From contig NZ_CP104011.1 of assembly GCF_025133575.1 (NCBI RefSeq), positions 2,728,001 through 2,792,000 of the forward strand: a DNA stretch of 64,000 nt, in the 5' to 3' direction. The notes beneath the pieces were generated by a model. It was not told where the DNA came from and made no database searches. It worked only from the letters and a program-made list of their open reading frames with translations. The translations under genes were made by a program, and so were the position numbers. The DNA is from Pseudomonas sp. GCEP-101 (lineage in GTDB: Bacteria > Pseudomonadota > Gammaproteobacteria > Pseudomonadales > Pseudomonadaceae). Positions 2,286 to 21,377 of this stretch are shown here, in pieces. How positions within the stretch are numbered: the stretch's first letter is position 1; each line of letters begins with the position of its first letter.

Positions 2286-2794
2286 GGCAGCGCCGCTCCG
2301 CCGCGCTGCAGGCAGATCTTGCTCGAGTAGCGGCCGGCAGTGAGGGTGAACACCCGCGGGAAGTTGCCGCTGCCGGTGGCGATGCCGTTGCCGTCGAACT
2401 CCAGCGCAGCGGCCGGCTCCTGGGTGATGAGCACCTGGCCGGACTCGTCGAGCCGGGTCCTGCGCAACTCGATCTCCCGGTGGCCCTGCAGGTCGCCGCC
2501 GCGCAGCCGACCGACGCTCAGCTCCGAGGTCCAGTCGCCGCTGCGCTGCGGCGTCACCCGTACCGGCTGGTGCCCGATCTGCGCCTGGGCGCGGGCGTAC
2601 TGCAGCACCGCAATCAATTGCTTGCCGGTGCTCTGCGCGCGGTTGCGATTGATCAGCAGGTCGAAGGAGGGCACCGCGATGCCCAGCAGGATCGCCAGGA
2701 TCGCGATGGTCACCATCGCCTCGATCAGGGTGAAACCTTGCTGAATGTGCCGGAGGAGGTCCGGAGCCTGCCATTGAGTCCTGGATGAATCCAT
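2276..2794 (-). CDS. fimU: Minor pilin FimU/FimT (GspH-like)
   Basis: 172 residues. After the leader MDSSRTQWQAPDLLRHIQQG comes FTLIEAMVTIAILAILLGIA, a textbook prepilin cleavage site with Glu5. The C-terminal region has a GspH/FimT-like beta-rich domain ending in a Cys pair (KICLQRGGAALPCD). As first gene of the pil operon it is most likely FimU, the minor pilin linking the tip complex to the major pilin shaft; FimT is the close alternative. No promoter could be assigned with confidence in the short upstream gap. Confidence 0.85.
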   Translation of the reverse strand: MDSSRTQWQAPDLLRHIQQGFTLIEAMVTIAILAILLGIAVPSFDLLINRNRAQSTGKQLIAVLQYARAQAQIGHQPVRVTPQRSGDWTSELSVGRLRGGDLQGHREIELRRTRLDESGQVLITQEPAAALEFDGNGIATGSGNFPRVFTLTAGRYSSKICLQRGGAALPCD

Positions 2795-2897
2795 CGTCTC
2801 GCCATCGTCATGAAGCGCCGGGCGCTGGCGCTTGCTTTCGTGCGCCGGGCACGGTCCTTGATGGCGTGGTTTTTATCGCGATGAATGGCGAGGGCGA

Positions 2898-2915
2898 TTT
2901 AAGACGATTCTTAAA
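2898..2915. promoter_or_regulatory. Palindrome TTTAAG-N6-CTTAAA upstream of fimU
   Basis: A perfect 6-bp inverted repeat with a 6-base spacer in an AT-rich pocket of the fimU-eutC gap. It could be an operator or a weak hairpin downstream of eutC. A GC-rich inverted pair (CCGCCCGC at ~2920 and GCGGGCGG at ~2955) between it and the eutC stop could serve as a terminator stem, although no T-run follows directly. Function not established. Confidence 0.35.
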
Positions 2916-2977
2916 GACGGCCGCCCGCTGCGCGGCATGTGGTCGCGTTCACGCGGCGGGCGGTGCGGCGGCCGGGC

Positions 2978-3784
2978 TCAGCCGCTGATGAGGAAGTTGC
3001 CATGCACACCTGCGCGCTCGCCCTCCAGGGTCGGCAATTCTGCTTCGTCCTTCAGGTTTACCCCCGACAGCTGCCGGCGGCACGCTTCGCGCATCAGGTA
3101 CAGCAGCCGGTGCGTGGCGAGGCCATAGCTCAGGCCTTCCAGGCGTACGTTGGAGATGCAGTTGCGGTAGGCATCGTTCAGGCCGACCTTCGGCGCCCAG
3201 GTGAAGTACAGGCCCAGGCTGTCCGGCGAGGACAGGCCAGGGCGTTCGCCGATCAGGATCACCACCATCTTCGCCCGCAGCAACTCGGCCACCTCGTCGG
3301 CCACCGCGACCCGGCCCTGTTGCACCAGCGCCACCGGCGACAGGCTCCAGCCTTCGTTGCGCGCCTGCTCCTCCATGCGTTCGAGGAAGGGCAGGCTGTG
3401 GCGCTGCACGGCCAGCGAGGAGAGCCCGTCGGCAATCACCACGGCCAGGTCGTAGCCCTGCGGATGACGGTCGGCGTGGCGGCGCAGGAGGTCTGCCGAC
3501 GCCTCGTCCAGCCGGCGGCCCAGGTCCGGGCGTTGCAGGTAGGTGTCGCGGTCCGCGGCGGCGCTGTGCAGCAGCAGGGTTTCGCGGCCGCGTTCCGCCA
3601 ATTGCGCGGCGAGCCCGTCGCGGTCGAAGGGCAGGTGCACGGCGTCGCGCGCCTGGGCGTGGGCGAACTGGAAGTCCAACTGGGCGTGGGTCGGCAGGCT
3701 GGTGCCGGCGCGGCCCAGGGCGATGCGCGCCGCGGTGAGGCGGCGCAGTTCCTGCCAGGGGTTGGGGGTGAAGCTGTCGCTCAT
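2978..3784 (-). CDS. eutC: Ethanolamine ammonia-lyase small (beta) subunit EutC
   Basis: 268 residues. EutC and EutB form the adenosylcobalamin-dependent lyase that converts ethanolamine to acetaldehyde and ammonia. Family hallmarks are visible along the whole length: [12 protein letters not shown] near the N-terminus, [17 protein letters not shown] in the middle, and [19 protein letters not shown] near the end. The start MSDSFTPNP at 3784 is preferred because GGAGGAG lies seven bases upstream; a GTG five codons earlier lacks one. It sits 15 bp behind eutB. No carboxysome-like shell genes and no eutA reactivase are seen, as in other Pseudomonas eut clusters. Confidence 0.96.
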
Positions 3785-3799
3785 CGAAGACTCCTCCAC

Positions 3800-5194
3800 T
3801 CAGGACAGTTGCGCGAGCGCATGACGGAAGGCGCCGGGCAGTTGGCTGGCCATCTGCACCCGGCCGTCCTGCTGGCGGAGGATTTCCATGCGCGCCAGCC
3901 ACGCCTCGAACTCCGGCGCCGGCCGCAGGCCCAGCGTCTGCCGCGCGTAGAGCGCATCGTGGAAGGAGGTGGTCTGGTAGTTGAGCATCACGTCGTCGGA
4001 GCCGGGGATGCCCATGATGAAGTTGATGCCGGCCACGCCCAGCAAGGTCAGGAGCATGTCCATGTCGTCCTGGTCTGCCTCGGCGTGGTTGGTGTAGCAG
4101 ATGTCGCAGCCCATGGGCACACCGAGCAGCTTGGCGCAGAAGTGGTCTTCGAGGCCCGCGCGGATGATCTGCTTGCCGTTGTACAGGTACTCGGGGCCGA
4201 TGAAGCCGACCACGGTGTTCACCAGGAACGGTTTGAAGTGCCGTGCCACCGCATACGCGCGGGTCTCGCAGGTCTGCTGGTCGACGCCGTGGTGGGCATT
4301 GGCCGACAGCGCGCTGCCCTGGCCGGTCTCGAAGTACATGAGGTTGTCGCCCAGCGTGCCGCGCTTTTGCGACAGGCCGGCCTCGTAGCCTTCCTGGAGG
4401 ATCGACAAACTCACGCCGAAGCTGGCGTTGGCCGCTTCGGTGCCGGCGATGGACTGGAACACCAGGTCCAGCGGCGCGCCACGGTTGATCGCCTCGATGG
4501 AGCTGGTGACGTGGGTGAGCACGCAGGACTGGGTGGGGATCTCGTAGCGCTGGATGATCGCGTCGAGCATTTCCAGCAGGGTACAGATCGATTGCAGGCT
4601 GTCGGTCGCCGGGTTGATGCCGAGCATGGCGTCGCCGTTGCCGTAGAGCAGGCCGTCGAGCACGCTGGCGGCGATGCCGGCCGGGTCGTCCGTGGGGTGG
4701 TTGGGTTGCAGCCGCGTGGACATGCGCCCGCGCAGGCCCATGGTGTTGCGAAAGCGCGTGACCACGCGGATCTTCTGCGCGACCAGCACCAGGTCCTGCA
4801 CGCGCATGATCTTCGACACCGCCGCTGCCATTTCCGGCGTCAGCCCGGGCGCCAGGGCGCGCAGGCTGGTTTCGTCCGCGGCCTCGCCGAGCAGCCAGTC
4901 GCGCAGGCCGCCCACCGTGAGGTGGCTGACCGGTGCGAAGGCCTGGCGGTCGTGGGTGTCGATGATCAGGCGGGTGACCTCGTCGCTTTCGTAGGGGATC
5001 AGCGCCTCGTCGAGGAAGCGCTTGAGCGGAATGTCGGCCAGCGCCATCTGCGCGGCGACGCGCTCGGCATCGCTGCCGGCGGCGACCCCGGCAAGGCGGT
5101 CGCCGGAGCGCGCCGGGCTGGCCTTGGCCATCACCTCGCGCAGGCTGTCGAAGCGCCAGGTCTGGCCACCGACGCTGTGGACGAATCCGGACAT
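3800..5194 (-). CDS. eutB: Ethanolamine ammonia-lyase large (alpha) subunit EutB
   Basis: 464 residues, the usual EutB length. The TIM-barrel catalytic subunit binds ethanolamine and cobalamin. Strong family segments include LQPNHPTDDPAGIAAS, YGNGDAMLGINPATDS, VTSSIEAINRGAPLDLVFQS and GCDICYTNHAEADQDDMD. The ATG at 5192-5194 follows GAGGAG at good spacing. An open frame continues upstream antiparallel to the permease but is not EutB-like. It lies between the permease gene (11 bp away) and eutC (15 bp away), so the three genes form one transcription unit. Confidence 0.97.
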   Translation of the reverse strand: MSGFVHSVGGQTWRFDSLREVMAKASPARSGDRLAGVAAGSDAERVAAQMALADIPLKRFLDEALIPYESDEVTRLIIDTHDRQAFAPVSHLTVGGLRDWLLGEAADETSLRALAPGLTPEMAAAVSKIMRVQDLVLVAQKIRVVTRFRNTMGLRGRMSTRLQPNHPTDDPAGIAASVLDGLLYGNGDAMLGINPATDSLQSICTLLEMLDAIIQRYEIPTQSCVLTHVTSSIEAINRGAPLDLVFQSIAGTEAANASFGVSLSILQEGYEAGLSQKRGTLGDNLMYFETGQGSALSANAHHGVDQQTCETRAYAVARHFKPFLVNTVVGFIGPEYLYNGKQIIRAGLEDHFCAKLLGVPMGCDICYTNHAEADQDDMDMLLTLLGVAGINFIMGIPGSDDVMLNYQTTSFHDALYARQTLGLRPAPEFEAWLARMEILRQQDGRVQMASQLPGAFRHALAQLS

Positions 5195-12196: not shown

Positions 12197-12200
<4 letters not shown>

Positions 12201-13003
12201 GAGCGCACTCCGTCCGCCATTGGCCCGGTGCCATGCGGTTCGCGAGCAAGCTCGCTCCTACGAAGAGCGCGTTCGCCGAGCCTGTAGGAGCGAGCTTGCT
12301 CGCGAACGGTGCTTGGGTCTTGAGCGGGCGCTTCGATTGACTCCTCCCCCTCTCCCTAACCCTCCCCCTGAAGGGGGAGGGGACAGCATGGTGCAGGATG
12401 AGGCCTCGGCATCAGCCGGCACAGATAGCCCCCTCTCCCTTCAGGGAGAGGGCGAAATATGCGCAGGGCTATCCGGGGCCGCGCTCGGCCCGGTGCTATG
12501 CGGTTTGCGAGCAAGCTCGCTCCTACGAAGAGCGCGTTCGCCGGGCCTGTAGGAGCGAGCTTGCTCGCGAACGGTGCTTGGGCGTTGGGCAGGCGCTTCG
12601 ATTGACTCCGCTCCCTCTCCCTAACCCTCCCCCTGAAGGGGGAGGGGACCGCATGGTGCAGGATGAGACCTCGGCATCAGCCGGCGCAGACGGCCCCCTC
12701 TCCCTTCAGGGAGAGGGGGAGAGGGCGAAACATGCGCAGGGCTATCCGGGGCCGCGCTCGGCCCGGTGCCGTGCGGTTCGCGAGCAAGCTCGCTCCTACG
12801 AAGAGCGCGTTCGCCGAGCCTGTAGGAGCGAGCTTGCTCGCGAATGGTGCTTGGGCGTGGGGCAGGCGCTTCGATTGACTCCGCTCCCTCTCCGTAACCC
12901 TCCCCCTGAAGGGGGAGGGGGCCGTATGGTGCAGGATGAAGCCTCGGCATCAGCCGGCACGATCTGCCCCCTCTCCCTGAGGGAGAGGGCTGGGGTGAGG
13001 GGG
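12197..13003. repeat. Tandem triplication of a REP pair plus CT-hairpin element (units of 265 and 273 bp)
   Basis: Unit boundaries can be set at GGCCCGGTGC: 12222, 12487 and 12760. Each unit holds a reverse REP arm (GCGAGCAAGCTCGCTCCTAC), the spacer GAAGAGCGCGTTCGCCG, a forward REP arm (GTAGGAGCGAGCTTGCTCGC), GCGCTTCGATTGACTC, and one CT-hairpin element (about 12345-12453, 12610-12728, 12884-13002). Copies differ by few substitutions and small indels. The third unit diverges after its CT element. No gene lies between eatR and mpl. Confidence 0.9.
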
Positions 13004-13206
13004 ACGCGCAAGCACGGATATCCCCGTCGACCACCGCCGACTTGAAACGCACGGCGATGATGGAAAAGTGAACGCCTTCCCCCTCCACCGGGAACCGCCT
13101 CCCCACCTCGTCGTCTGATGCCCCGGCGGCGGGCCGCGCGGGGGCGCGCTGTGCTACTCTGCCGCCCATTCGAAGCGCCTTCACAGGCTTGATTGCAGGA
13201 GTCTGC

Positions 13207-15468: not shown

Positions 15469-15566
15469 CCCAGCCTCCCTCTCGGTACTAGTGTTTCCTG
15501 CCTGTTCGGCTGGCCCGCTCCGGCACTGGGGCGGCGCTCCCTGTTCGGATGGTCGTAGACTTCCCT

Positions 15567-15685
15567 GTAGGAGCGGGCACGCCCGCGAACGCGGACAAGG
15601 TCCGCGCTCATCGATACACGCGTTGCCTAACGGATGCTGGGACGTTCCCAGGCAGGGGCGCCCTTCAGGCGCATGGCCCGCTTGT
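15567..15685 (+). repeat. Compound REP element, copy A
   Basis: Starts GTAGGAGCGGGCACGCCCGC, then GCGGACAAGGTCCGCGCTCA, TCGATACACGCGTTGCC, and ends GCATGGCCCGCTTGT (decayed right arm). A second, more complete copy lies 380 bp downstream in the same orientation, and an inverted one at 21.1 kb. Confidence 0.8.
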
Positions 15686-15730
15686 GTCAGTCGGTCTCGC
15701 CAGGATCAGAGGTGAGAGCGGCTGGGGCTG

Positions 15731-15860
15731 CCCTCTCCCCCGCCCTCTCCCTCAAGGGAGAGGGAGCTGTCCGTGCCGGCTGGCGATCTGGATTCCTCCT
15801 GCACCGACCGGTCCTCTCTCCCTTCGGAGCGGGGCGCGCAGCCAGGGTTAGGGAGAGGGA
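15731..15860 (+). repeat. CT-hairpin element, diverged copy between two compound REPs
   Basis: CCCTCTCCCCCGCCCTCTCC starts the left hairpin and CTCTCCCTTCGGAG the right one. The core carries GTGCCGGCTG and TCCTCCTGCACC, which are the usual core words reverse-complemented, so the core is inverted relative to the other copies. Confidence 0.75.
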
Positions 15861-15946
15861 AGTTCTCGGCACGGACTGTCAGAGAAAGACACTTCTACAA
15901 AGGCGCGGCGGTTCCCGCATGTCCGGATGGCCGGAGGACTCATCCT

Positions 15947-16196
15947 GTAGGAGCGGGCCACGCCCGCGACCGCGGACAAGGTCCGCGCTCATCGATACAC
16001 GCGTTGCCTACCGGATGCCTGGGCGCTCCCGGGCAGGGCGCCTTGCAGGCGCCCTTCGCGGGCATGGCCCGCTCCTACACTGGGCGTCGGTGAGTGGAGG
16101 GGCCATTGTAGGAGCGAGCTTGCTCGCGAACCTCCCAAACTCCCGGCGGCACCGGCATTCGCCGTTGCGCTGATTCGCGAGCAAGCCCGCTCCTAC
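15947..16196. repeat. Compound REP copy B plus a further REP pair
   Basis: 15947-16078 runs from GTAGGAGCGGGCCACGCCCG to GGCATGGCCCGCTCCTAC, with the internal GCGGAC-AAG-GTCCGC stem. A separate pair follows: GTAGGAGCGAGCTTGCTCGC (16108-16130) facing GCGAGCAAGCCCGCTCCTAC (to 16196). Together with 15469-15946 this accounts for the 786-bp gap between the lipoprotein and the NAD(P)-binding gene; no gene is seen there. Confidence 0.8.
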
Positions 16197-16254
16197 GAAG
16201 AGCAACATCGGCGTGCAGCCGCGAACGGTTGTACGCCTTCGGTGTGTGGTGGGG

Positions 16255-16896
16255 TTATTTGCCCAGCTTGCGCAGTTCGTCCGACTCGACGATGCGGGTG
16301 CCCTTGCCGGTTTCCAGCGCCAGGCGCCAGAGCGCACGGGCCAGGGCGATGGCTTCGATGCCGTGCAGCTTGCCCGGCAGGATGCGGGCGAAGGGCGCGG
16401 CGAGCAGTTCGGCCAGGCGGACCTCCTCGCGCTGGCCCAGCAGCAGCGACGGCCGCGCGATGGTCAGTTGCTGCCAGCCCTGCTGGCGCAGGGCGTCTTC
16501 CAGTTCGCCCTTGACCCGGCTGTAGAAGATCGACGATTTGCTGTCCGCGCCCAGCGCGCTGACCACGATGTAGTGCCGCGCACCGAGGGCCAGGCCGCGC
16601 TCACCCAGGGCCAGCGGCAGGTCGAAGTCGACGCTGCGGAACGCCTCCTCCGAGCCGGCTTCCTTGAGGGTGGTGCCCAGGCAGCAGAACACCGTGTCCA
16701 CCGGCTGGAGCAGGTGCGGGATGAGTTCGGCCAGCGGGCCGACCGGGTTTTCCAGGCGTGGGTGCTCGGCCAGCTTCCGCCGGGCCGGAGCGATGACGCG
16801 CTGGACGGTGGGCTCGTTGAGCATGCGATCGAGCAGATGCTCACCGGTCAGGCCGGTGGCGCCAGCTAGCAGGATGTTCGTCGGTTTCGAGTACAT
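16255..16896 (-). CDS. NAD(P)-binding oxidoreductase (atypical SDR, HTATIP2-like)
   Basis: 213 residues. The N-terminal [20 protein letters not shown] is a dinucleotide-binding GxTGxxG fold; [28 protein letters not shown] and [14 protein letters not shown] match the small atypical short-chain dehydrogenase family with NAD(P)H-binding domains. The usual SDR YxxxK is represented by YSRVK. Substrate unknown. It lies 30 bp downstream of the MORN-C13 lipoprotein gene on the same strand, so the two are probably co-transcribed. PAO1 has the same pair (PA4017-PA4016, from memory). Confidence 0.82.
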
Positions 16897-16926: not shown

Positions 16927-18657
16927 TTAGTTGTCGCCCTGTCGTTTTGCCTGCGCATCGCTGTCGCGCTGCGCCAATGTGCTGTGCGTCTGCTGCGCGC
17001 GCAGGGCCTGCCAGCGAGTAATGACCCCTGGCGGCGCCCAGAGTTGCGGCTCCGAGGGCTCGAATTCCTCCTCCTTCTCGCGCGCCGCCACGGTGGCGCT
17101 GGCCAGGGCGAACGCCTGCCGGAGGTCGTCGGTCTGCCGGAAGGCCTTGGCGAACAGCGCGTCGCCGAAGTAGGTGAAGTCGGCCTCCTCGGAACAGCCG
17201 AAGGACAGCCGGTCGCTGCGCGCGGCGGTCATGATCAGGGTCTTGTCATCCTTGAGCGCGGGGATGAAACCGCCGCTGTAGCAGGCGGAAATCACCAGCA
17301 CCTTGGTGCGGTCCTTGAGCGGGGCGAGCAGGTCGGCCAGTTCGCTGGCCGGCAGGTCGTCGAGCTTCAGGCCCGGCATGTCCAGCACCAGTTGGTGGTC
17401 GTGGGAGCCGTGGCTGGTGAGGTAGATGAACACCAGGTCTTCCGGGCCGCTGCGCTGCGCGATGGTGCGCAGGGTGCGGGCGAGGGTTTCGCGGGTGGCC
17501 ATGGGGCGGTCGGCGAGGTGGTCGCGGTGGTTCACCAGGCGCACCACGCTGCGCGCGCCGAAGCGTTCGCCGAGCAGGTTGGCGACATAGTCGGCCTCGC
17601 GCAGGAACACGCTCTGCTTGCCGTCGCCACCCAGGCTGACACCGTACAGCTCGATGGCCGGGGTGGACGGCGGGATGGCGGCGAGCGCCTGATCGAGCAG
17701 CGCGCCCTGTTCCAGCAGGCCCACTTCCAGCGGATCGGGCAGACGCTTGCCGGCGGCGTCCTGGCGCAACTGGCCGGCGCGCCAGATGCCTTTCTGCACG
17801 CTGCCATCGCGGCGGGTGAGGGTGCCTTCGCCGGCGTATTCGCCGCGGGCGAAACCGCCGGTGTAGGTCTGGCCGTCGGGTTTGCTCAGGGTGCCCTGGC
17901 CGTCGAAGCGCCAGAAGCGGAAGTCGCCCTTGTAGTGGCTGCCATCGCTGCCGATGAACTCGCCCGGCCCGCTCAGCGCGCCGGCCTTGAAGCGGCCCGA
18001 CCAGACATCGCCATCGGCATTCTGGAAGCGTCCGTTGCCGTCGAACTGGTCGTTGCGGAACTCGCCGCTGTACTGATCGCCAGCGTCGTCGCGGAAAATG
18101 CCCTTGCCTTCGAGCACGCCGTTCTTGAACGAGCCGCTGTACTGGTTGCCCAGGCTGTCGCGGCGGGCGCCTTCGCCGTTGGCCTCGCCCTTGGCGAAAT
18201 AGCCCTGGTGACGAGTGCCGTCGGCCTGTTCGAGGCTGCCTATGCCCTCGTAGCGGCCCTTGCGGAAGCCGCCGCTGTAGGTGCTGCCGCCCTGGGAGAG
18301 CCTGCCTTCGCCGTCGAATTCGCCGCGCTTGAATTGACCCTCGTAGACACTGCCGTCGGCATACTGCAGGCGGCCGCGGCCTTCGAACAGGCCGTCGTGG
18401 AACTCCCCGTCATAGCGCGTGCCGTTGCCGTCGCTCCAGGTGCCCTGGCCGCTCTGCAGGCCCTTGTCGAAGGCGCCCTCGTACCAGGCACCGTTGCTGT
18501 AATCCAGCCGCCCCGGTCCCTGCAACTGGCCGTTCACCACCTCGCCGCGGTAGCGGGCGCCGTCAGGCAGGCGGGCGTCCGGGGGCGACAGCGGTTCGCC
18601 TTCGCCGCAGGCGGCAAGGAGCAGGGCGAGGCTCAAGGGCAGGAGGTGGCGTGGCAT
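16927..18657 (-). CDS. Lipoprotein with ~11 MORN repeats and a C-terminal C13 (legumain/caspase-like) peptidase domain
   Basis: 576 residues. Signal peptide with lipobox LLLAAC. Residues ~36-290 are about eleven near-perfect 23-residue MORN units of the form YxGxFxxGxxxGxGxxxxxDGxx. Residues ~330-540 form a caspase-hemoglobinase fold: ELYGVSLGGDGKQSVFLREA, then the catalytic-type His416 in YLTSHGSHDH and Cys459 in VISACYSGGF, 43 residues apart as expected for clan CD peptidases. It should be tethered to the envelope, with MORN repeats binding lipid or partners and the protease acting on unknown substrates. The start at 18657 places the signal peptide exactly. Function of the family is not established. 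Confidence 0.85.
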   Translation of the reverse strand: MPRHLLPLSLALLLAACGEGEPLSPPDARLPDGARYRGEVVNGQLQGPGRLDYSNGAWYEGAFDKGLQSGQGTWSDGNGTRYDGEFHDGLFEGRGRLQYADGSVYEGQFKRGEFDGEGRLSQGGSTYSGGFRKGRYEGIGSLEQADGTRHQGYFAKGEANGEGARRDSLGNQYSGSFKNGVLEGKGIFRDDAGDQYSGEFRNDQFDGNGRFQNADGDVWSGRFKAGALSGPGEFIGSDGSHYKGDFRFWRFDGQGTLSKPDGQTYTGGFARGEYAGEGTLTRRDGSVQKGIWRAGQLRQDAAGKRLPDPLEVGLLEQGALLDQALAAIPPSTPAIELYGVSLGGDGKQSVFLREADYVANLLGERFGARSVVRLVNHRDHLADRPMATRETLARTLRTIAQRSGPEDLVFIYLTSHGSHDHQLVLDMPGLKLDDLPASELADLLAPLKDRTKVLVISACYSGGFIPALKDDKTLIMTAARSDRLSFGCSEEADFTYFGDALFAKAFRQTDDLRQAFALASATVAAREKEEEFEPSEPQLWAPPGVITRWQALRAQQTHSTLAQRDSDAQAKRQGDN

Positions 18658-18698
18658 CGGGACTCTCGAATCAGCGGGACGCCGTTTGAGTGTGACGC

Positions 18699-18726
18699 AA
18701 AAAAGCCCGCGGACGCGGGCTTTTTT
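18699..18726 (-). terminator. Bidirectional-looking Rho-independent terminator
   Basis: AAAAAAGCCCGCGGACGCGGGCTTTTTT (first and last six bases are A- and T-runs): a perfect GCCCGCG stem. It lies 22 bp past the MaoC gene on the minus strand and just upstream of the MORN-C13 gene, separating the two. Confidence 0.9.
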
Positions 18727-18747
18727 CTCAGCGCTGAGCAGGCGCGG

Positions 18748-19203
18748 TCAGACGAAGCACAGGCTCAGGGATTCGGCGATGTAGGCGGGCTTGGGCAGGC
18801 CTTCGATCTCCAGCGTGCAGCGGGCCTTGATCAGCCACTGGCCGGGGTTCTTCTCGGTGATGTCGGTGATGGTCACCTGCAGGCGCACGCGCGAGTCCAC
18901 CGGCACCGGCTGGATGAAGCGCACGCTGTCCAGGCCGTAGTTGACCACCATCTTGGGGTTCTCCGGCAGGACCAGCAGGCCCTCGCAGAGCTTGGGGATC
19001 AGCGACAGCGAGAGGAAGCCGTGGGCGATGGTACCGCCGAAGGGCGTCTTCTTCGCCTTCTCCGGGTCGACGTGGATGAACTGGTGGTCCTCGGTGCACT
19101 CGGCGAACTGGTTGATGCGCTGTTGATCGACGGTGATCCACTGCGAATGCCCCAGGTCCTTGCCGATGTAGTCCTTCAGTGCGCTTACGGGTACGAATGC
19201 CAT
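18748..19203 (-). CDS. MaoC-like hot-dog dehydratase ((R)-specific enoyl-CoA hydratase type)
   Basis: 151 residues. The hydratase-2 motif is clear: HQFIHVDPEKAKKTPFGGTIAHGFLSLSLIP, given here by position ~40-70, with the conserved Asp, His and the FGGTIAHGFL segment. These enzymes hydrate trans-2-enoyl-CoA to (R)-3-hydroxyacyl-CoA, linking beta-oxidation to polyester or lipid metabolism; the actual substrate is unknown. A GAGGAAAC-like ribosome site precedes the ATG at 19203. It is a single-gene unit ended by the terminator at 18.7 kb. Confidence 0.9.
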   Translation of the reverse strand: MAFVPVSALKDYIGKDLGHSQWITVDQQRINQFAECTEDHQFIHVDPEKAKKTPFGGTIAHGFLSLSLIPKLCEGLLVLPENPKMVVNYGLDSVRFIQPVPVDSRVRLQVTITDITEKNPGQWLIKARCTLEIEGLPKPAYIAESLSLCFV

Positions 19204-19382
19204 GTTTCCTCCGGGGATATCGTTGTTCTTCTAGTGCGGCCTGCGTAACGGTCCGTCAACAGATCAGCATGGGGGCCGCGGCCGGTCAAGCCGCAGCGGC
19301 ATTCATGCTTTGGGCGAATGCCGAGCCATAGCGGGCGCCGGGCGGGCATAATGGCGGCTCCTTGCGCTGGAGATGTTCCCTG

Positions 19383-20476: not shown

Positions 20477-21067
20477 ATGAGTTTTCCGCTGTTCCCCCTC
20501 AACACCGTGTTGTTTCCGGGCTGCCGCCTCGACCTGCAGATCTTCGAGGCGCGCTACCTGGACATGATCGGCCGCTGCATGAAGCAGAACGGCGGGTTCG
20601 GCGTGGTGGCCATCGTCGAGGGCGAGGAATTCGGCGATGCGCCGGAGCGCTACAGCCTGGTCGGCTGCGAGGCGCACATCCGCGACTGGCAGCAGCGGCC
20701 CAACGGCTTGCTGGGCATCCGTGTGGAGGGCGGGCGGCGCTTCCGCGTGCTCTCGGCCAACGTGCAGCCGGACCAGTTGACCGTGGCCGAGGTGCAATGG
20801 CTGGACGAGCAGCCCGACCAGCCGCTGACCAAGGAGCACGACGACCTCGCCGCGCTGCTGGAGGCGCTGTCGATGCACCCGATGGTGTCTGCGCTGGAGA
20901 TGGGCGGGGAGGTCAACGGCCAGCAGGCACTGGCCTGCCAGCTTGCCTACCTGCTGCCCTTCGAGCGCGACCAGAAACAGGTGCTGCTGGAGATGGACGA
21001 CCCCACCGTGCGCCTGGCGCGCATCCAGGTGCTGCTGGAGCAGTTGCAGGGGGATTTCGTCGCCTGA
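20477..21067 (+). CDS. LON N-terminal (substrate-binding) domain protein
   Basis: 196 residues, all of it one LON substrate-binding domain: FPLFPLNTVLFPGCRLDLQIFEARYLDMI is the classic start, followed by the GVEGGRRFRVL-type strand (here IRVEGGRRFRVLS). No ATPase or protease domain follows, so it is a stand-alone PUA-like LON-N protein of unknown role. The ATG at 20477 is preferred over a GTG two codons earlier because of GACGGAG. It sits 18 bp behind the CidB/LrgB gene, suggesting co-transcription. Confidence 0.9.
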   Translation: MSFPLFPLNTVLFPGCRLDLQIFEARYLDMIGRCMKQNGGFGVVAIVEGEEFGDAPERYSLVGCEAHIRDWQQRPNGLLGIRVEGGRRFRVLSANVQPDQLTVAEVQWLDEQPDQPLTKEHDDLAALLEALSMHPMVSALEMGGEVNGQQALACQLAYLLPFERDQKQVLLEMDDPTVRLARIQVLLEQLQGDFVA

Positions 21068-21100
21068 CGCGCCAGCTCACCCTGCACACCGGCTCTCCCT

Positions 21101-21220
21101 GTAGGAGCGGGCCATGCCCGCGAAGGCGCCGACAGGCGCCGTTGCCGGGGAATGCCCAGGCGCGGTGTGTTCATGAAAACGCGGACCTTGTCCGCGGTCG
21201 CGGGCATGGCCCGCTCCTAC
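21101..21220 (-). repeat. Compound REP element, inverted copy
   Basis: Reading on the minus strand it gives GTAGGAGCGGGCCATGCCCG, GCGGACAAGGTCCGCG, then TCATGAACACACCGCGCC and a closing GGGCATGGCCCGCTCCTAC: the same layout as the 15.6 and 15.9 kb copies. Confidence 0.8.
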
Positions 21221-21311
21221 AGGGATACATCGTGGCCCTGCCCTCCGGCCCCTTCGCGCCTGCTGTATCGAGTCTCCAGGCTGCGTCGTGTTCTTTGCCT
21301 GCTCCGAACAG

Positions 21312-21346
21312 CCCCCTCTCCCTCCGGGAGAGGACTGGGGTGAGGG
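21312..21346 (+). repeat. CT-hairpin element, right half only
   Basis: CCCCCTCTCCCTCCGGGAGA continues into GGACTGGGGTGAGGG; the left hairpin and core are missing. It lies ~90 bp from the compound REP. Together they fill the 358-bp gap between the LON-N gene and prpF, apart from the terminator that follows. Confidence 0.7.
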
Positions 21347-21377
21347 AAACCCAGGCACGATCCCTCCACGAAAAACG

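Follow-up and report, generated by a model that had tools for sequence, protein, structure and literature searches.

The window, a stretch of 64,000 nucleotides from Pseudomonas sp. GCEP-101 (NZ_CP104011.1, positions 2,728,001 to 2,792,000), carries on its minus strand at 16927-18657 a gene of 576 codons that the ORF list, Pfam and synteny identify as the orthologue of P. aeruginosa PA4016. The start ATG lies at 18657 and the stop codon at 16927-16929; the first-pass annotation had given the extent of the gene correctly and left its strand unnamed. The product begins with a predicted signal peptide (residues 1-17, 18607-18657) ending in the lipobox LLAAC (residues 13-17, followed by GEGE), whose Cys17 (codon 18607-18609) is the predicted lipidation site, based on the sequence and its conservation in Pseudomonadaceae. 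It continues with a MORN array (residues 35-300, 17758-18555), detected by Pfam, a family profile, the hairpins of a structural model and Foldseek, and with a legumain-like Peptidase C13 domain of clan CD (residues 320-545, 17023-17700), detected by Pfam, the model and its fold match. This domain holds the catalytic pair His416 (TSHG, end of strand beta3, 17410-17412), aligned with the His of legumain NHGS, and Cys459 (SACYSG, end of strand beta4, 17281-17283), aligned with the Cys of legumain EACESG, as well as the invariant Glu354 on helix alpha1 (17596-17598), a candidate S1-pocket residue. All these features are on the minus strand. Sequence, Pfam and model bear out the lipobox, the MORN array and the clan CD C13 fold that had been read from the letters at first pass.

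A search of the whole genome (6.23 Mb, a single contig) found this to be its only C13 gene, with no second MORN protein. The genome is that of a Pseudomonas of the P. nitroreducens group, and its closest relatives are strains of this group (about 91% identical). A chance array or spurious ORF is ruled out by the Pfam E-values, the orthologues and the confidence of the model. We also detected a plus-strand ORF of 754 aa (16984-19248) antisense to the MORN-C13 and MaoC genes. We read it as a codon-bias (GC) shadow of the reverse strand, since it spans two minus-strand genes and since antisense ORFs of this kind recur over C13 genes elsewhere.

A palindromic intrinsic terminator (18699-18726, minus strand; AAAAAAGCCCGCGTCCGCGGGCTTTTTT) separates the MaoC gene from the MORN-C13 gene. 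It is a hairpin of the form A6-GCCCGC-GTCC-GCGGGC-T6 (fold -22.7 kcal/mol, z -3.95 for a 46-nt stretch), and a simple scanner overlooked it, probably on account of its T run, which forms part of the stem. Given its position, the MORN-C13 gene probably begins its own transcription unit; PA4016 has been called a probable single-gene unit (PMC3406104). On the other side, 30 bp downstream, is a gene for an NAD(P)-binding protein (NAD_binding_10/HIM1-like by Pfam; 16255-16896, minus strand). Nearly every Pseudomonas locus read shows the arrangement mpl-ubiX-YceK-NAD(P)-MORN/C13-MaoC, and an annotated P. aeruginosa record lists LON, LrgB, LrgA, MaoC, "peptidase C13", oxidoreductase, YceK, ubiX, mpl, EatR and aldehyde dehydrogenase. 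PA4016 is described between PA4015 and PA4017 (PMC3406104), which agrees with the annotated order if the neighbours carry these PAO1 numbers.

The NAD(P)-binding protein had been taken at first pass for a co-transcribed partner. Its spacing stands, and the pairing comes down to local synteny, with the gene adjoining the C13 gene in 20/20 Pseudomonas loci and 0/20 loci outside the genus. A phylogenetic profile had been proposed for the C13/SDR-like pair, and the two turned out to be neighbours inside Pseudomonas only. We found no generally conserved neighbour in the 20 non-Pseudomonas loci beyond the C13 gene itself and antisense shadow ORFs. A functional operon with either the NAD(P) or the MaoC gene was rejected, neither having support beyond Pseudomonas and the MaoC gene also being cut off by the terminator.

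Two dispersed repeats were seen in the window. Units of about 265 bp, repeated at roughly 91% identity, occupy 12200-13100. Parts of the unit are found again, in either orientation, near 8.2, 15.7-16.1, 22.7, 46.4-46.6, 47.9 and 61.6 kb, as a dispersed, palindromic intergenic family (Pseudomonas REP-like). The second repeat (15480-16200 and 20900-21350) consists of pieces of about 130-150 bp, 79-86% identical among 15.5, 15.9 and 21.1 kb.

Pfam PF02493 (MORN), a family of 23-residue repeats with GxG, matches the whole protein with E = 2.3e-31 (106 bits, cut-off 22.5). A locally built family profile counts 11 repeats, as in nearly all Pseudomonas orthologues, and the model shows 12 consecutive beta-hairpins over residues 35-300, which correspond to 11 canonical repeats and a weak final one; the first count of eleven holds, with the model adding this weak twelfth hairpin. 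The 267 residues of the array carry a slight negative net charge (-4). The statement made at first pass that MORN repeats usually bind phospholipids finds no backing in a structural study of MORN1 proteins, which found no membrane-lipid binding, advises against taking the repeats as lipid binders and argues for homotypic interactions and assembly (PMC7725318). Between Pseudomonas groups, the C13 domain is about 70-74% identical and the MORN array 52-58%, and such faster divergence is unlike a ligand site under strict conservation. Read economically, the array would serve as a spacer or for dimerisation or docking.

MORN is a generic module within the phylum: in other Pseudomonadota its arrays are fused to FGE-sulfatase domains or occur on their own. 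Among them were seven loci with a MORN array N-terminal to an FGE-sulfatase (formylglycine-enzyme-like) domain. Three further proteins, each about 500-540 aa long and with 18 MORN motifs, all come from one family (f262) of the phylum; in two of these three, Pfam detected only MORN. Twenty high-scoring MORN proteins of other Pseudomonadota were checked and none has a clan CD domain, which speaks against a general coupling of MORN to clan CD peptidases. A single example of such a coupling is a gene on an Azospirillum plasmid (locus positions 2399-4495) that encodes a caspase (C14) domain, bacterial SH3 domains and a MORN array, adjoined by Ser/Thr kinase and PP2C phosphatase genes.

The C13 domain is matched by Pfam PF01650 (Peptidase_C13) in two stretches with E = 3.7e-37 (128.7 bits, cut-off 22.8). 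An AlphaFold2 model of the full-length protein, built with 55 natural sequences, reached a mean pLDDT of 92.4 and a pTM of 0.55, so that the single domains are confident and the mutual arrangement of MORN and C13 is not fixed; modelled alone, the C13 domain reached a pLDDT of 97.9 and a pTM of 0.94. Foldseek searches with the full-length model returned MORN1 crystal structures first (3e-21) and legumain lower (8e-10). With the C13 domain alone, legumains were best (E 1.4e-11, TMq 0.68-0.70; PDB ligase structures among the hits) and caspases next. In the model, strand 408-414 leads to His416-Gly417 and strand 451-457 to Cys459, and the His/Cys dyad of clan CD sits at the ends of beta3 and beta4 (PMC4357240). 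Both residues align by sequence with the legumain catalytic pair. His416 and Cys459 are placed together as in legumain, on the basis of fold match, strand positions and alignment rather than a measured distance. The family profile touches GPI transamidase weakly (E 0.053), and legumain is much closer in sequence. After the C13 domain, the model has only one C-terminal helix (543-574) and no LSAM prodomain, which sets the window protein outside the animal and plant legumain subgroup; the prodomain, with acid activation, marks that subgroup and not the whole C13 family. A caspase or metacaspase (C14) defence effector was rejected, as there is no C14 Pfam match, the best PADLOC match is weak (3.6e-6) and the neighbours are housekeeping genes; the NCBIfam EACC1 caspase model gave 34 bits against a cut-off of 140.

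Across 102 related C13 domains of Pseudomonadota, His416, Gly417, Cys459, Glu354, Phe351, Asp407 and Gly462 are invariant (102/102), and Ser485, Gly487, Cys488, Glu527, Ser535 and Pro537 are invariant wherever aligned. With His416 and Cys459 placed as in legumain and retained by every relative in this set, the protease role proposed at first pass withstands the refutation that was set for it. Invariance of the His, the Cys, Glu354 and Asp407 across the phylum indicates a catalytic site maintained by selection, and catalysis is very probably maintained in the C13 class, as far as conservation can tell. The specificity is another matter. Arg44, His45, Ser216 and Asp231 are named as residues of the legumain S1 pocket (PMC4357240). 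In the C13 class the Ser is kept (Ser485), members have D, R, E or Q in place of Asp231, and the Arg44/His45 region is not aligned by the profile. Since the Asp231 position is variable and Ser457 stands where legumain has the Glu beside its Cys, specificity for Asn should not be assumed, and the P1 residue cut by the enzyme is probably not Asn. In other clan CD enzymes, P1 charge is determined by the helix alpha1 region (PMC4357240), and Glu354 on this helix is a candidate specificity residue.

C13 domains were detected in 93 of 148 sampled Pseudomonadaceae genomes, in 38 of 245 genomes of the order and, above cut-off, in 32 of 369 genomes of the class, some of the latter being other clan CD proteins. 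The 101 C13 proteins from fetched loci, a sample weighted towards Pseudomonadaceae, comprise 67 with MORN, 23 with several transmembrane helices and 11 with neither. Fusions of MORN and C13 occur in at least 16 gammaproteobacterial families (Pseudomonadaceae and 15 others), with about 4 to 12 repeats. Presence of MORN, mapped onto the C13 tree, takes 4 changes compared with 24.5 for shuffled labels, which indicates that the fusion is old and was rarely gained or lost. A mobile origin was rejected: plasmid records gave a single match of nearly full length, to a P. aeruginosa stretch that resembles chromosome, and a search of phage records found no full-length match to the MORN-C13 protein. Our literature search found no paper describing the fusion. 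The architecture is nevertheless present in databases, annotated as "peptidase C13", and belongs to a widespread, almost unstudied family, so it is not categorically new. The word "undescribed" used at first pass goes too far, given the P. aeruginosa annotation "peptidase C13", the appearance of PA4016 in a published screen and a distant relative with a phenotype.

The lipobox is conserved in Pseudomonadaceae orthologues and, in the MORN-C13 proteins of other families, is often replaced by a signal anchor that looks uncleaved. A third anchor, found in Acinetobacter and many others, consists of five helices with alternating positive flanks (N-in, C13 out), and a further C13 architecture carries DUF4124. 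In all three anchor types, the C13 domain is predicted to lie outside the cytoplasm, in the periplasm. For the window lipoprotein, the Gly at +2 after the lipidated Cys suggests sorting to the outer membrane, and the protein may be surface-exposed. An envelope proteome includes PA4016 among its proteins of altered abundance; the fraction also contains cytosolic enzymes and is therefore weak for location (PMC7835679).

Leads to function come from two relatives. PA14 insertions in PA4016 are viable, and one allele was attenuated in nematodes, in the delta-exoU background only, an attenuation that a second allele did not reproduce (PMC3406104). These insertions indicate that PA4016 is dispensable and its phenotype unconfirmed. 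In Acinetobacter, two reviews describe abrp as a "peptidase C13 family" gene whose deletion (Li et al. 2016) raised membrane permeability, slowed growth and increased susceptibility to several antibiotics (PMC10203620, PMC8003822), and one further review words the direction of the effect inconsistently (PMC5346588). A C13 gene also marked early polymyxin exposure (PMC4872528). We found one C13 gene, of the five-helix type, in chromosome-sized A. baumannii records (CP040048.1 617653-619104), and the C13 domain of its product shares 39% identity with that of the window protein over 190 residues (E 3e-35). As it is the only one, it is probably abrp, and this, though it comes from a different architecture that has no MORN, favours an envelope-maintenance endopeptidase as the reading of the window protein.

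We therefore consider the protein to be probably a periplasmic C13 cysteine endopeptidase that is anchored in the outer membrane and helps to maintain the envelope, its MORN array being a spacer or docking scaffold. It would be exported as a lipoprotein and, if its sorting is as suggested by the residue at +2, would most likely sit on the inner side of the outer membrane. The 12-hairpin solenoid between lipid anchor and catalytic domain would most likely act as a rigid spacer and as a surface for homotypic contacts or the docking of a partner, and would thereby position the protease within the periplasm. The C13 enzyme, presumed active, would have a restricted P1 preference, probably not for Asn, and would cleave proteins or peptides of the envelope in the service of envelope maintenance or stress adaptation.

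The first-pass annotation had instead proposed a sensor-executor whose MORN array would recognise a lipid or partner and then activate the protease, leading to a stress or self-killing programme. A binding-type repeat fused to a protease fits such gating, many clan CD enzymes need activation (PMC4357240), and in Azospirillum MORN is also fused to C14 and SH3 beside a kinase and a PP2C phosphatase. We nevertheless hold it to be unlikely: a re-evaluation gave no support to lipid binding by MORN (PMC7725318), the C13 family includes relatives that do without MORN, which is thus dispensable there and a generic module elsewhere, the rod and protease have no fixed arrangement in the model (pTM 0.55), no partner genes are conserved outside Pseudomonas, and the best local match to caspase-type defence is the weak PADLOC one. 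The invariance of His, Cys and surrounding motif in 102/102 domains, not expected of a pseudo-enzyme, makes it improbable that the protein is an inactive scaffold, a C13-like fold lacking catalysis in which MORN is structural, even though our literature search found no activity assay of a bacterial C13 member and many lineages of the order do without the gene (38 of 245 genomes have it). A transamidase or ligase, in which C13 would cut a sorting sequence and join the product to an envelope acceptor as eukaryotic GPI8 does, would suit the permanent membrane anchoring of most architectures; C13 includes GPI transamidase, which the family profile touches weakly, and legumains can ligate, as the PDB ligase structures among the fold hits illustrate. 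We regard it as very improbable, with legumain much closer by sequence and fold and with no sorting-signal family or acceptor pathway beside the C13 genes of the loci examined. We take PP_0551 and PP_0550 to be the P. putida orthologues of the MORN-C13 and NAD(P)-binding genes. A functional unit of the C13 protein with the downstream SDR-like protein, consistent with the 30 bp spacing on one strand, the adjacency throughout Pseudomonas and the prediction of PP_0551/PP_0550 in one unit (PMC10943186), is hardly credible given its absence from the loci outside the genus, the simple synteny of the whole block mpl-ubiX-YceK-NAD(P)-C13-MaoC-lrgAB, and products of which one is periplasmic and the other presumably cytoplasmic.

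If the reading as an envelope endopeptidase is extended to the family, the gammaproteobacterial C13 proteins that face the periplasm could together make up a single, undescribed class of cysteine proteases that process the envelope, possibly by transamidation. Their anchors (lipoprotein-MORN, five-helix, DUF4124) would be interchangeable, and they would control how permeable the outer membrane is and how far the cell intrinsically tolerates drugs; the MORN rod would set the reach of the protease to an envelope machine or dock on it. We offer this wider proposal tentatively and consider it doubtful. Caspase- and legumain-fold proteases are rarely studied in Gram-negative envelopes, and here is a chromosomal gene, syntenic within Pseudomonas, with a strictly conserved catalytic site. 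Should the class process envelope proteins, it would supply a mechanism for the reports on permeability and susceptibility as well as a druggable active site. The same protease on other anchors in relatives allows a clean natural comparison of what MORN adds to the enzyme.

The nearest known protein is P. aeruginosa PA4016, which is 64% identical over 95% of the query, shares MORN and C13 and the syntenic block mpl-ubiX-YceK-oxidoreductase-C13-MaoC-lrgAB, differs in nothing essential and is likewise uncharacterised. The A. baumannii C13 protein (probably AbrP) has a homologous, membrane-anchored C13 domain predicted to be periplasmic, but its anchor is of five helices and it has neither MORN nor a lipobox. 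The MORN1 proteins of Toxoplasma, Trypanosoma and Plasmodium share the 23-residue beta-hairpin solenoid (25-34% identity, Foldseek 3e-21), whereas they are stand-alone eukaryotic cytoskeletal proteins with no enzyme domain. Azospirillum WP_051658688.1 (caspase family, SH3, MORN) also joins a clan CD peptidase to a MORN array; it differs in having C14 instead of C13, the reverse domain order and kinase and phosphatase neighbours, and is an independent fusion. Human legumain (MEROPS C13) shares the fold, the position and order of His and Cys and the S1-pocket serine (Ser216, here Ser485). It differs in the Glu beside its Cys (EACESG), replaced by Ser457 in the window protein, and in Asp231, a position (499) that varies between D, R, E and Q in the class of the window protein. 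The window protein also lacks the C-terminal LSAM prodomain of legumain, has an N-terminal MORN array and is a bacterial lipoprotein.
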